From: a virus
IMG/VR virus record: IMGVR_UViG_3300025137_000169
Coordinates: 1 to 30,791 of that record
Direction: 5' to 3' (one strand)
Length of the DNA: 30,791 nucleotides
Under the pieces are notes generated by a model. That model worked only from the letters and a program-made list of their open reading frames with translations, was not told the origin of the DNA and searched no databases. The position numbers and the translations under genes are program-made. Below are positions 1,194-5,016 of this stretch, piece by piece (position 1 is the first letter of the stretch; every line of letters begins with the position of its first letter).

Positions 1194-1228
1194 AAAAAAA
1201 GGGAGGCTAAACAGCTTCCCTTTATTTT
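1194..1228. terminator. Bidirectional hairpin terminator between convergent genes
   Basis: An 8-bp stem (1201-1208 with 1213-1220, one G-T wobble, 4-base AAAC loop) is flanked by an A-run on the left (1194-1200) and a T-run on the right (1221-1230), so it reads as an intrinsic terminator from either side. It starts just after the tandem stop codons of the reductase gene and reaches the stop codon of the endolysin gene, exactly where two convergent transcripts need to end. Confidence 0.85.
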
Positions 1229-1687
1229 TTATACTACCATGTACCTGGTTTTATTATCTTTATCTTTATAAGCCTTTAGACATCTATTCCTATTGTCTTT
1301 TGCATTCACATAGCTTACATGTACCCAATCAGGGTTGCCTATTGTGCCGAACTCCCATATCATTTGATCAAAATCTAAGTTATCTTTAATGTATTCGTAC
1401 ATGTCCGCATTACTCATATAGGAATACGTATCATCAATATCCATAGCTTGTCCTTTACAATGTTGTGATTTACTACTACCACCTATTGCTTTGTTAAGTT
1501 TAGCACCACGATAAAATGAATTAATCTTTATAGGGCCGTTTACGTGGGCTCTAAGAGGCTCAAATACTTTTTCGCATAATAACTCCATGTTTCTAATATG
1601 GTCTTCTGTAGGTGTGTTATCTAAGCCAAGGCGTTTTGCTGTTATGCTATACACACCTTCCTTCATACTAACGTGTTTACTTAACAT
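1229..1687 (-). CDS. Endolysin, peptidase M15 family (DD-/LD-carboxypeptidase-like)
   Basis: A 152-residue zinc peptidase predicted to cut peptidoglycan cross-links at the end of infection. The M15A-type zinc site is readable: SQHCKGQAMDID supplies His76 and Asp83, and DWVHVSY supplies His123, with Glu112 in WEFG as the likely catalytic acid. IKINSFYRG (53-61) upstream of the zinc site is also typical of the family. It has no signal peptide, so it should depend on a holin or another membrane lesion for export. It is the last gene of the long minus-strand operon; its ATG lies inside the 3' end of the preceding small gene (11-base overlap), implying translational coupling. Length is normal for single-domain M15 phage lysins. 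The exact bond cleaved cannot be told from sequence alone. Confidence 0.88.
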   Translation of the reverse strand: MLSKHVSMKEGVYSITAKRLGLDNTPTEDHIRNMELLCEKVFEPLRAHVNGPIKINSFYRGAKLNKAIGGSSKSQHCKGQAMDIDDTYSYMSNADMYEYIKDNLDFDQMIWEFGTIGNPDWVHVSYVNAKDNRNRCLKAYKDKDNKTRYMVV

Positions 1688-1916
1688 CTTTCTTCTTTCT
1701 GCCTTTGCGAGGCTTACCTTTCACAGCATCGTCTATATCTTCGAATTGATTTCCAACCTCTTTTATAGCTTTAGCAACGTCCGCCAATTCTTCTGCTGTA
1801 AGCTTATATCTTTTTTTAATTTCTTTTACTGTAGCAATTGCTTTTTCGTCTATTGTGGTTTTACTCCATAACAGGACCCAAATATCTTTTAGGAATTGTT
1901 TTGTTAATTTTAACAT
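1677..1916 (-). CDS. Small basic helical phage protein, function unknown
   Basis: A 79-residue protein with a short hydrophobic N-terminal stretch (FLKDIWVLLW, about 8-17), a charged amphipathic helical middle (25-60) and a very basic tail (KGKPRKGRKKK). Proteins of this pattern occur next to lysis genes in other marine phages as far as I recall, but I know of no assigned role. It overlaps the lipoprotein gene upstream by 56 bases and the endolysin downstream by 11 bases, so all three are probably translated together. The N-terminal segment is short for a transmembrane helix but could bind the membrane as an amphipathic element. A role as a holin partner is conceivable and unproven. The only Met in the frame is the chosen start. 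Confidence 0.75.
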   Translation of the reverse strand: MLKLTKQFLKDIWVLLWSKTTIDEKAIATVKEIKKRYKLTAEELADVAKAIKEVGNQFEDIDDAVKGKPRKGRKKKDVK

Positions 1917-2199
1917 CTTTTTTGTTTTTAATTAATTTAATAACATATTTTATAACTATACCACCTAAAGTGGTGGCTACTAAGTCTTTAGTATCGAATT
2001 TACCGTTTCGTATATAGTCGTAGGTTTCTTTAGCAAATCCCGCTGCAAAAGCAGAAGCCACTTGTGGTAAATCTTTTTGATTTGCAACATATGCTGATGT
2101 AGCACCAGCCGCAAAATGATAATATTTATCTTGGCTTATGGATTGCGGGCTAGCACAGCTTGCAACCACCACCGCAGTAAGGGCAATAATTTTTTTCAT
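1861..2199 (-). CDS. Predicted lipoprotein, DUF2279/YfiM-like
   Basis: A 112-residue exported protein. The N-terminus is a lipoprotein signal: MKK, a hydrophobic core, then VASC with Cys15 as the expected lipidation site. Directly after follows DKYYHFAAGATSAYV, resembling the DKxxHFxxG signature of the DUF2279 (YfiM) family of small periplasmic lipoproteins. A second hydrophobic segment (about 75-90, TLGGIVIKYVIKLI) could insert in a membrane. It begins directly after the stop of the upstream gene (TGA then ATG) and its 3' end overlaps the next gene by 56 bases. Given its place three genes upstream of the endolysin, an outer-membrane lysis role similar to an o-spanin is possible; that is inference, since classic o-spanins are shorter and Pro-rich. 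Confidence 0.78.
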   Translation of the reverse strand: MKKIIALTAVVVASCASPQSISQDKYYHFAAGATSAYVANQKDLPQVASAFAAGFAKETYDYIRNGKFDTKDLVATTLGGIVIKYVIKLIKNKKDVKINKTIPKRYLGPVME

Positions 2200-2508
2200 T
2201 CATATTTTTAAATTTTTTATTTTTTCCACATCAAATTCTTTTTTTAGTTCGTGAGGAGGTCTAGTTTTACCCATTGAACCTTCAAAAATACCAATACCTA
2301 ATTTTAATAATCCTTTGCCAAGTCCTCCCATAAGGCCCATAGCTCCGCCACCAATTTGCATTTGCTGAGGTTCAAACTCTACTAGTTTACCTTCTGGTAA
2401 ATTAGGCTTTATAAGGTCAGCGGCGTTTGTAGTAAACATTCCAAACGGACTTTTATTGCGTGGCATTTCAAATTTATTATTAATATTCTTTTTATAATTA
2501 AATCCCAT
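2200..2508 (-). CDS. Small Gly/Met-rich phage protein, function unknown
   Basis: A 102-residue protein I do not recognise. The N-terminal third is basic and Asn-rich; residues about 53-80 form a Gly/Met/Leu-rich run (QIGGGAMGLMGG, then KGLLKLGIGIFEG) that could be a membrane-active or amphipathic helix; the C-terminus is Lys/Asp-rich. It has no cleavable signal peptide. It sits between a secreted thioredoxin-like gene (6-base gap) and the lipoprotein gene (no gap), so it belongs to the lysis/envelope block. The hydrophobic Gly-rich segment makes a holin-like or pinholin-like function worth considering, but nothing in the sequence is specific for one. Confidence 0.7.
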   Translation of the reverse strand: MGFNYKKNINNKFEMPRNKSPFGMFTTNAADLIKPNLPEGKLVEFEPQQMQIGGGAMGLMGGLGKGLLKLGIGIFEGSMGKTRPPHELKKEFDVEKIKNLKI

Positions 2509-2514
2509 AACTTA

Positions 2515-2925
2515 TTAAAATTTGTTTGCTGTGTTAATTTCGTTTATTGTTTCTTGTATTTCATTAAGATCTGTAGGAAGTAATAAGTCCAACCCAGCTT
2601 TAAATGTGGCTTCTTTTTCGCCATTTTTAAATATTAATAAGGTTGGTGCCATACGTATTCTATATTCTTTTTTCGTTATTGGCGCTTTAGATATATCTAC
2701 TCTATAATATAAAGCGTCTTTCACTTTTTCCCATTCGTTAAAGCAATTTTCTTTATTAAATTCCGCCCAAAATTCTACAAGAATAGTTTTATTTTCATCA
2801 TCTCCAAAAGCAGAATTACCAGATATTACATTTTCAAAATCTTTATCAGTTAACCAATATTTATCCGGAACGTCTGATTGAGTATATGATATAAAAGGTA
2901 TTAAAATTAAAATTAAATATTTCAT
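2515..2925 (-). CDS. Secreted thioredoxin-fold protein lacking the CxxC active site
   Basis: A 136-residue protein with a Sec signal peptide (MKYLILILIPFISYTQS, cleavage likely after about residue 15-17). The mature part follows the thioredoxin fold: TILVEFWAEF (47-56), then the cis-proline strand RMAPTLLIFKNGEKEATFKAG around Pro94, which closely matches the corresponding part of bacterial thioredoxin. The redox motif is replaced: where CGPC is expected the sequence reads NKEN (57-60), followed by a lone Cys61. It therefore cannot do the normal dithiol-disulfide exchange and probably acts as a periplasmic binding or chaperone module, or as a single-Cys protein. Its start codon overlaps the stop of the upstream gene by one base (TAATG), indicating coupling within the envelope block. 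Confidence 0.82.
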   Translation of the reverse strand: MKYLILILIPFISYTQSDVPDKYWLTDKDFENVISGNSAFGDDENKTILVEFWAEFNKENCFNEWEKVKDALYYRVDISKAPITKKEYRIRMAPTLLIFKNGEKEATFKAGLDLLLPTDLNEIQETINEINTANKF

Positions 2926-3212
2926 TATCTATTTTTTTGTATTTCGTATATTCTTTCGTCTAGTTTATCTAGTTTTTCTAAGATCATTTCTACATCGTCT
3001 TGAGTGTCCATTATAGTATTACGAATTAACTCATCTTTTAATTCAAACTCTGTTTTTGATATAGGAGGCTTAGGAAGTTCCATAGCAAGGGCTATATCTC
3101 CTTTCAAAGTATAATAAGTTGTAGCCAACGCTATAGTAAACCCTACTATTGTGCCTATTGTTTTTAAATCAAGTGTTACTTTTGTATTTTCTCCTATCTG
3201 TGGTGTGCTCAT
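2925..3212 (-). CDS. Membrane protein with one TM helix and C-terminal coiled coil (holin- or i-spanin-like)
   Basis: A 95-residue protein with one clear transmembrane segment (about 18-36, TIGTIVGFTIALATTYYTL), a Pro-containing linker and a C-terminal heptad-patterned helix (about 65-92, rich in Leu/Ile, Asp and Glu with LEKLDKLDERIYEIQ). This single-TM plus coiled-coil layout is what an inner-membrane spanin subunit or a class III-type holin accessory would look like; the position in the lysis/envelope block supports that, but no family-specific motif is present. The gap to the beta-barrel gene upstream is only 3 bases. If it is an i-spanin, its partner would be the lipoprotein at 1861-2199. 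Confidence 0.78.
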   Translation of the reverse strand: MSTPQIGENTKVTLDLKTIGTIVGFTIALATTYYTLKGDIALAMELPKPPISKTEFELKDELIRNTIMDTQDDVEMILEKLDKLDERIYEIQKNR

Positions 3213-3215
3213 GTT

Positions 3216-4433
3216 CTACTTAAGTGTTATGTTTAAACCTATTGTTGATTGGAATATTTCACTATCCCACATTTTAGAATACTCACCTTCCATAAATATA
3301 CCTAAATTTTTATTAATTTTCCAGCCTAAACTTAATCCAGCTGAATAATCATCCCATTGTTCTGGCTCCGAATCTTGTCTTAATCCACCTAACCCCCAAT
3401 TGTTTCTGTTTAAATAAGAAACTTCTTTATCTCCTTGTACGTACTTATGATAAGGTAATATGTAGTTGGCATAAGCATGCAGCCAAAACTTACCTTTGTA
3501 AGTGTAGTAATCAGCACCAACAATCGGTGCTACTTCACCAAAAGAATCTAGCAAATCCCATCTTTCTCCATTGTATCTATTCATTAATTCTGTAAACACG
3601 TCTTCTCTAAATTGAAGATCCGAGTAAGCTACAATTTCTCCATTTTCATCTCTCCATATCCAGTCGCTAACTTCTTCGCCTGTTTGTGAATCAGTATAGG
3701 TTGTGTAATGATCAGAGTATCCGTATTGAAAACCTAGGCTATACCAAGGATTTAAAGGATATTCAAATGTATTTCCATTTCCATCATCATATACTTGCGT
3801 TTCATTTAACCATATTTCTATTGGATTATACCCGTAGGCTCTATCATGTGTTCGGTATATTGCACCCGCTGATATACTAAACTTTTTGCCAATTGGTAAT
3901 CTTGCTCTTACTTCTGCTGATTGATATTTTAGGTTTATCTTAGAAACCTCTCTTGATTCAGCTTTTACTATGTGATACTTACCAGTATGCTTAAGAAATA
4001 TTCTATGGTTATCAAAATGATCACCCCTAAATCTTTCTTTTTCAAAATGTATTTGATATTCTAAACCTTTCAAAGCTGATGATGGAGCTCTAAAAGCAAG
4101 TTGCTCTTCAGTACCATCATAAAAGTTTTTAGGTTTTCTTTCATAACTGAACCTAGCTAACTTTCTAATACCAAAGCCATATCTATAGTCAAAAGGATAA
4201 TCAGGAGTATCGTCTACTAAAACGGGTATGTCATACAAACTAGCACCAGGTGGTGTTCTAACAAAAAATACATTTTCTTTGGCCTCAATAGAATTACTAA
4301 CATCTCCAGCACCGTATATGGTACCATATTTTAAAAAGTCTTCATACAAGGTTTTAAATAAACCTTTTTTTGGTTCTTGCGCTGTAACGTTTATACTGTA
4401 TATAAGCGTTATTAATAGTAATAATTGTTTCAT
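3216..4433 (-). CDS. Predicted phage-encoded outer-membrane beta-barrel protein
   Basis: A 405-residue protein with a clear signal peptide (MKQLLLLITLIYSINVTAQ, cleavage expected after the AQ) in the style of Bacteroidota exported proteins. The mature part is rich in Tyr, Trp, Gly and Asn and repeatedly shows alternating polar/hydrophobic strands of 8-12 residues, e.g. FSISAGAIYR, WYSLGFQYGYS, FWLHAYANYIL, DYSAGLSLGWKI, LGIFMEGEYS and the C-terminal IGLNITLK. Together these indicate a transmembrane barrel in the outer membrane. Acidic/aromatic stretches between strands (about 225-275) would be long extracellular loops. I do not recognise a precise family. It follows the 92-aa basic gene after 44 bases and starts the envelope block. 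Possible roles are blocking superinfection by masking or replacing a receptor, or weakening the outer membrane for lysis; both are inference. A virion role cannot be excluded. Confidence 0.82.
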   Translation of the reverse strand: MKQLLLLITLIYSINVTAQEPKKGLFKTLYEDFLKYGTIYGAGDVSNSIEAKENVFFVRTPPGASLYDIPVLVDDTPDYPFDYRYGFGIRKLARFSYERKPKNFYDGTEEQLAFRAPSSALKGLEYQIHFEKERFRGDHFDNHRIFLKHTGKYHIVKAESREVSKINLKYQSAEVRARLPIGKKFSISAGAIYRTHDRAYGYNPIEIWLNETQVYDDGNGNTFEYPLNPWYSLGFQYGYSDHYTTYTDSQTGEEVSDWIWRDENGEIVAYSDLQFREDVFTELMNRYNGERWDLLDSFGEVAPIVGADYYTYKGKFWLHAYANYILPYHKYVQGDKEVSYLNRNNWGLGGLRQDSEPEQWDDYSAGLSLGWKINKNLGIFMEGEYSKMWDSEIFQSTIGLNITLK

Positions 4434-4477
4434 TCCTTTACTTTTTTTTGTTAGGTTTGTATAATATATGTAATCAC

Positions 4478-4756
4478 CTATTTTTTACCTCTTTTAACGT
4501 TTTTTACTCGCCTAGGTTTACCAGCAGGCTGTCCTAGTCTTTTTTTCTCTCTTATTTTTGCTGCTTTTTCAGAAGATGACATTTCACTGGCTGTTTTTAC
4601 AGTCTTGCTAGATATTCTTTTACTAGGCCTACAATATGGGGTTCCTCTTTTTTCGCCTTTGCTACGGCCACATGGTTTTCCAGTGCGTACATCAATCCAT
4701 TTTTCTTTAAACCATCGCTTAAGATTCGCTCCTTTTTTACTTTTCTTTACCGCCAT
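4478..4756 (-). CDS. Small basic DUF5872-like protein
   Basis: A 92-residue, highly basic protein. Its N-terminal half (KKGANLKRWFKEKW, DVRTGKPCGR, KGEKRGTPYCRPSKRISSKT) matches the pattern I remember as DUF5872, found in marine phages and also in large algal viruses. Two cysteines (in KPCGR and PYCRP) lie in the conserved part, followed by an SSKTVKTASEMSSSEKAAKIREKKR region and an Arg/Lys tail. No enzymatic motif is visible; nucleic-acid binding or packaging with DNA is plausible from charge alone. Its start overlaps the stop of the 47-aa gene upstream by 20 bases. It is the third of three tiny basic, Cys-bearing genes in a row after the giant gene. Confidence 0.85.
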   Translation of the reverse strand: MAVKKSKKGANLKRWFKEKWIDVRTGKPCGRSKGEKRGTPYCRPSKRISSKTVKTASEMSSSEKAAKIREKKRLGQPAGKPRRVKNVKRGKK

Positions 4757-4880
4757 CTTTCGGTTTTTTATGTCCGCAGCCTTCGCCTTTAAATTTTAAA
4801 TGATCTTTAAACGTTTTTGCTTCTTTAGTGCTACCGTCTTTGCAATACATTGTGTGTGGTTTGAATTTTTTCTTTGCCAT
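4737..4880 (-). CDS. 47-residue basic Cys-containing phage protein
   Basis: A short gene easily missed by length cutoffs. It reads from ATG at 4880 to TAA at 4737: MAKKKFKPHTMYCKDGSTK, then a helical middle and GEGCGHKKPKDGGKEK. Two cysteines (13 and 35) and a following GH resemble a tiny metal- or disulfide-stabilised fold. I recall similar short ORFs (MAKKKFKPH, YCKDGS, GCGHTKP) in other marine phages. It begins 4 bases after the stop of the 43-aa gene and overlaps the next gene by 20 bases, so it sits inside the operon in proper phase. Function unknown. Confidence 0.78.
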   Translation of the reverse strand: MAKKKFKPHTMYCKDGSTKEAKTFKDHLKFKGEGCGHKKPKDGGKEK

Positions 4881-4884
4881 TGTT

Positions 4885-5016
4885 TTATTTTTTAGATTTA
4901 TTACCCCAGTTAGCTGCTCCTACTTTTCTACACTTAGCGATTGCACCACTAGCGTAAGCGGAAGGAAACACTTTATACCTTGCTTTTACTTTTTTGTAAC
5001 ATGCGTCTTTTGCCAT
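4885..5016 (-). CDS. 43-residue DUF6321-like protein
   Basis: Reads from ATG at 5016 to TAA at 4885. The sequence MAKDACYKKVKARYKVFPSA followed by YASGAIAKCRKVGAANWGNK is a strong match to a motif I know from cyanophages and algal viruses (KDACYHKVKSRY, WPSAYASGALVKCRKVGA, NWGNKS; DUF6321-like). In larger proteins the same motif occurs as a domain; here it is nearly the entire protein. Two cysteines (6 and 29) bracket the SAYASGA core. It starts 2 bases after the stop codon of the giant gene, so it is translated as the next operon member. No function is established to my knowledge; co-occurrence with the DUF5872-like gene is notable. Confidence 0.85.
   Translation of the reverse strand: MAKDACYKKVKARYKVFPSAYASGAIAKCRKVGAANWGNKSKK

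Follow-up and report, generated by a model that had tools for sequence, protein, structure and literature searches.

The window and its seven-gene operon

The window, meaning the whole stretch of DNA that was analyzed, is a 30.8 kb virus fragment. TerL, portal and MCP all have matches among the PHROG head-and-packaging families; the MCP shares 39-46% identity with those of Cellulophaga, Flavobacterium (elemo) and Maribacter phages. Seven ORFs run on the minus strand from 4433 to 1229, with structural genes and a 2650-aa ORF upstream, and stop before a convergent RNR gene. The features are as follows, where "triad" designates the barrel, tmcc and trx genes.

3216..4433, minus strand: predicted outer-membrane beta-barrel, 405 aa, signal peptide, 12 predicted strands; triad core
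2925..3212, minus strand: tmcc, 95 aa, N-terminal TM segment and charged coiled-coil-type C-terminal part; triad core
2515..2925, minus strand: trx, exported thioredoxin-fold protein, 136 aa, N57-x-x-N60 and cis-Pro94; triad core
2200..2508, minus strand: p102, 102 aa, glycine-rich, without export signal, few relatives; outside the core
1861..2199, minus strand: lipoprotein, 112 aa, lipobox VASC, phrog_29588-like (E 5e-8); optional partner
1677..1916, minus strand: p79, small conserved protein; optional partner
1229..1687, minus strand: M15 peptidase endolysin, PF08291, phrog_894; last gene of the operon
4453..4467, minus strand: promoter-like ATATTATACAAACCT upstream of the barrel gene, putative role
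about 1199..1230, no strand assigned: inverted repeat with T-runs, terminator-like as read from the sequence, between the convergent M15 and RNR genes

This arrangement agrees with the original prediction, in which seven consecutive genes end with an M15 lysin and four of the products (barrel, tmcc, trx and lipoprotein) are exported or membrane proteins. Intergenic gaps, in translation order from barrel to M15, are 3, -1, 6, 0, -56 and -11 nt; because these are short or negative, the translational coupling proposed across the seven genes is plausible. The M15 protein matches PF08291 (E 1.4e-14) and the endolysin family phrog_894 (9.5e-30), and its Peptidase_M15_3 domain scores 54.6 bits against a curated cut-off of 23.2. 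Encoded at 4478-5016, after the 2650-aa gene and ahead of the barrel gene, are p92, small, basic and of the DUF5872 type (PF19197), and p43, which matches part of phrog_727.

Co-occurrence and spread of the triad

Loci were scored with profiles, 80 having been fetched by barrel similarity and 80 by tmcc similarity, and co-occurrence was counted only for loci flanked on either side by 2.5 kb or more of sequence. Both tmcc and trx lie within 2.5 kb of the barrel gene and on the same strand in 64 of 64 barrel loci; tmcc loci contain the barrel in 54/56 cases and trx in 56/56. Median gaps are 4 nt between barrel and tmcc and -1 nt between tmcc and trx. Genes are mostly ordered barrel-tmcc-trx, with a minority arranged as tmcc-trx-barrel. 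The conserved unit is this triad, and the seven genes of the window are a local arrangement. Five families had been predicted to form one unit, and their failure to co-occur had been set beforehand as a reason to abandon the idea. Barrel, coiled coil and thioredoxin do co-occur near-universally, but M15 (11 of the 64 barrel loci) and the lipoprotein (8 of 64) do not belong to the unit; p79 is likewise present in 11.

Selecting loci by M15 similarity makes the count less circular than selecting them by barrel or tmcc. Those with upstream room (n = 49) contain trx in 40 cases, tmcc in 39 and the barrel in 30, which makes tmcc-trx the innermost pair. Loci selected by the lipoprotein carry the triad in 10/10 cases. 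No barrel without the tmcc-trx pair was seen among loci with room. The pair occurs without the barrel at L174, L205, L208-L212, L214, L216, L218, L222, L223 and L267, and does so even in records of 60-107 kb. At the listed loci from L205 on, trx is shorter (about 101-116 aa) and still carries NxxN, and L223 has two tmcc-trx pairs. Copies of p79 are found near the triad in podovirus-type (window 1677-1916) and crAss-like (L033:13267-13521) loci. In one podovirus relative lacking the triad, a cassette for exported proteins occupies the equivalent site ahead of M15 (L225:2148-6997); it encodes a Lipoprotein_16-like protein of 154 aa and proteins of 541, 119, 239 and 483 aa, and is perhaps an alternative to the triad.

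The triad is present in hundreds of uncultured marine viruses (432 barrel relatives in viral contigs and at least 559 tmcc relatives) from at least three unrelated lineages, namely phi38:1/elemo-like podoviruses, T4-like phages and crAss-like phages. The examined viral records include nine with the TerL type of the window (phi38:1-like), one of which (G005) has tmcc-trx without the barrel, seven with T4-type Gp23, and 14 with crAss-like TerL, three of them distant. Note that lineage labels of the remaining loci were assigned from gene context and are less sure. Judging from relatives, the hosts are probably Bacteroidota. Searching 50,697 phage records with tblastn gave no match to barrel or tmcc, and trx found only ordinary thioredoxins and, weakly, an ssRNA-phage record. 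In the bacterial genomes searched, barrel and tmcc are confined to two MAG contigs. One is contig C16 of G041, which holds the only matches in 295 genomes of that MAG's class and whose TerL is 75% identical to that of the window; the other is L177. No published description of the triad was found in the open-access literature, a scope that takes in little of the subscription journals.

On the barrel tree, the three lineage labels need 11 changes where the minimum is two, and well-supported branches force at least five lineage changes per group; the long branch of row L287 is unreliable. These label changes indicate that the barrel, if not the whole module, moved between unrelated phages. In L042 (record G018), stops break TerL and RNR into pieces, which suggests a poor assembly or a decayed copy.

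A promoter-like element may have moved along with the module. In crAss-like operons, TATATTAT-n-TATAAACC lies 43-54 nt upstream of the barrel gene, or upstream of the lipoprotein gene where that gene comes first (L050, L079). It is present in 28 of 165 upstream regions, versus 0.2 expected, and the roughly 91 kb of G016 contain it just once. An extended form, TATATTAT-n-TATAAACC(A/T)AC, is seen in L036, L033, L039, L049 and others. The similar form in the podovirus window, ATATTATACAAACCT (4453-4467), is the basis for proposing joint movement. Podoviruses carry ACAAGTAAT at eight loci. The sequence NATAAATA, the T4 late promoter, precedes T4-like barrels at 29/165 loci versus 8.5 expected, and was set aside as weak against an AT-rich background.

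Properties of the three proteins

No Pfam, PHROG or PDB sequence family matched the barrel. A first AF2 model built from 13 sequences was too weak (pLDDT 61, pTM 0.55); it took a deep alignment to obtain a prediction of good confidence (12 strands, pLDDT 81, pTM 0.69). The protein combines a signal peptide with a predicted closed antiparallel barrel, and its top PDB matches are barrels of the outer-membrane type. The PDB fold search was rejected as a guide to function, since TamA, BamA, CymA and OmpG came out together at Z 9-11 and are only generic outer-membrane barrels. OmpG, CymA and the TamA barrel share this fold with the viral protein at about 5-11% identity, a generic likeness, whereas the viral barrel has a large conserved loop (residues 197-297). 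Mean identity is 0.64-0.76 in the long loops versus 0.77 in the strands. Alternate strand positions are highly conserved and include charged residues, which probably face the lumen and suggest a closed barrel. The best predicted-structure match, BFVD A0A516LKJ4 (E 5.9e-26, TM 0.67/0.79, 23% identity), is a viral model of 342 aa, compared with 405 aa for the window barrel, and looks like a true relative.

In 67 relatives, tmcc has a single TM segment (residues about 17-35) and a charged helical C-terminal part. The net charge around this segment weakly supports an N-in orientation. No PDB sequence match was found. A match to phrog_1009 in 35 of 67 members was discounted as a generic coiled-coil match because 12 of 14 control genomes match as well, and the proposed cyanophage and pelagiphage relatives were not found in P-SSM2, HTVC008M or S-SM2. 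A second, diverged tmcc-like family (104-110 aa) is encoded downstream of the triad at L160:7081-7413 and L223:6671-6985.

The fold of trx was assigned from a PF00085 match (E 1.1e-7) and from a profile of 90 relatives that matches PDB thioredoxins at up to 5e-14. Cysteine is absent from both CxxC positions in all 176 proteins (0/176), so the thioredoxin is redox-dead, as had been predicted. Asparagine occupies the two positions in 161/176 and 171/176, and the cis-Pro facing the active site is invariant (176/176). The protein thus shares with the thioredoxin family (PF00085) a fold-level sequence match and the cis-Pro, and differs in having NxxN in place of CxxC, in being exported and in including some shorter variants of 104-119 aa. 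Given the conserved NxxN and the invariant cis-Pro, the active site is, on sequence grounds, repurposed rather than decayed. An ordinary CGPC thioredoxin is encoded in a phage locus also bearing the triad (L061:4425-4706), so the NxxN form is not simply its substitute.

Neighboring lysis genes and possible roles

Every podovirus record counted has the M15 gene within 1.5 kb of trx (8/8). In T4-like phages one gene order recurs, namely rnr - tm81 - tm2 - barrel - tmcc - trx - amidase endolysin - Phage_holin_4_1, and the triad adjoins the amidase endolysin and Pfam holin at many loci. The amidase endolysin of crAss-like records lies about 37-76 kb from the triad in 9/9 (linked in 0/9), and that of the gp23-positive record G038 lies 27 kb away. 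A small two-TM family, tm2 (L073:7684-7986, L160:3459-3707), is encoded close to the triad in some phages of each of the three lineages and is possibly holin-like. At L019, the barrel ORF and the "big" gene before it share 4 nt; a comparable giant gene of cultured elemo phages is annotated as a structural protein. Lipoproteins, one of them proline-rich, are inserted between barrel and tmcc at crAss-like L033:9191-9601 and L036:9218-9931 and are possible o-spanin-like partners.

We tentatively favor a reading in which the triad is a trans-envelope, spanin-like module that disrupts the outer membrane, and consider it nearly as likely to be right as wrong. The triad would be virus-specific and expressed late, opening or breaking the outer membrane as infection ends. 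In this scheme, for which we infer the topology of tmcc, the formation of a complex, the time of expression and the membrane-disrupting action, tmcc would be the inner-membrane anchor with its charged helical part extending into the periplasm, and the barrel would be seated in the outer membrane. As a periplasmic adaptor, trx would hold a partner in the groove formed by NxxN and cis-Pro, with no disulphide exchange. After the action of the holin and of the endolysin (M15 or amidase), the complex would join or destabilize both membranes. An inner-membrane coiled coil, a periplasmic adaptor and an outer-membrane barrel beside two unrelated endolysin types fit this role, as do the constancy of the triad (64/64, 54/56) in three unrelated lineages, its linkage to lysis genes with non-homologous endolysins and the overlap of the barrel ORF with the "big" gene at L019. 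Against it stand the distant amidases of the crAss-like records and G038, the barrel-less tmcc-trx relatives, which show that an outer-membrane partner is not always encoded, the lack of a lipoprotein among barrel and trx, the weak charge support for an N-in tmcc, and cultured relatives that lyse their hosts although they have neither barrel nor tmcc. It is the location in crAss-like phages, together with the barrel-less variants, that makes this reading only tentative.

The i-spanins of lambda Rz/Rz1 and T4 PseT.3/PseT.2 resemble tmcc, as predicted from its sequence, in being short single-TM proteins with a coiled-coil-type part. Where the triad lies among lysis genes, it would also be like spanins in that the single-TM gene is coupled to an exported gene downstream of it and has a partner at or near the outer membrane. 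Unlike two-component spanins, the triad has a predicted 12-strand barrel rather than a lipoprotein as its outer-membrane part and an additional redox-dead thioredoxin fold; the tmcc of the window has no cysteine, and no sequence relation to spanins was found. Barrel and trx carry ordinary signal peptides and neither is a lipoprotein. A lipoprotein ORF lies within 2.5 kb at only 14/33, 10/23 and 15/38 loci, and several families are involved. For lack of the lipoprotein, the triad is classed here not as a spanin but only as possibly spanin-like in action.

Envelope genes of this kind might instead exclude superinfecting phages, with the barrel masking or occupying a receptor or envelope channel and tmcc and trx holding it in place so that later phages cannot inject. 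The long conserved loops, the exchange among phage lineages and the crAss-like triad with its own promoter-like element far from lysis genes would suit such a role, but in podoviruses and at many T4-like loci the triad has endolysin and holin genes as neighbors, and its conserved loops and near-universal partnership appear unlike fast-diversifying exclusion genes. The original prediction of a coordinated envelope set in Bacteroidota-type phages is retained, and its exclusion variant, which we consider unlikely, is not favored, because the triad is late or lysis-linked in two lineages, conserved in its loops and widely shared. Control of lysis, in which tmcc and trx hold, inhibit or release endolysin or holin in the periplasm and the barrel is accessory, has in its favor that a barrel-less pair directly precedes M15 at several loci and that the pairwise distances of tmcc and trx correlate better (r 0.65) than those of either with the barrel (0.27, 0.37). 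It is less likely still, since the triad occurs with M15 and amidase endolysins alike, the crAss-like endolysin is unlinked and the constant barrel partnership is left unexplained.

An auxiliary outer-membrane pore with a periplasmic binding protein, feeding the infected cell, is slightly more improbable again. The barrel fold resembles monomeric porins such as CymA and OmpG (Z about 10-11, not diagnostic) and the triad often adjoins ribonucleotide reductase, but no transporter or TonB-like domain was found, and the conserved, probably lumen-facing charges suggest a closed barrel. A virion or assembly component, the other outcome that was to count against the original prediction, is very improbable: the triad shares an operon with virion genes in podoviruses, but barrel and trx carry signal peptides and the three families span three unrelated virion types.

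PMC6139136 raises as an open question how phages with no recognizable spanins breach the outer membrane; it counts Bacteroides and Croceibacter phages as spanin-less and suggests that an OMP could serve as an o-spanin. According to PMC12596118, the Bacteroidetes phages in its data set use only unimolecular spanins. For the spanin-like reading, the triad is a concrete candidate of three genes. It is possible, though doubtful, that a machine of barrel, coiled coil and NxxN "asparagine thioredoxin" that opens the outer membrane constitutes a new lysis mechanism, found in unrelated lineages with marine Bacteroidota hosts and not known from cultured phages. The trx protein itself appears to be a conserved reuse of a thioredoxin active site without cysteines. 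If the spanin-like reading is true, the triad would be a virus-specific envelope machine common to at least three unrelated marine phage lineages.
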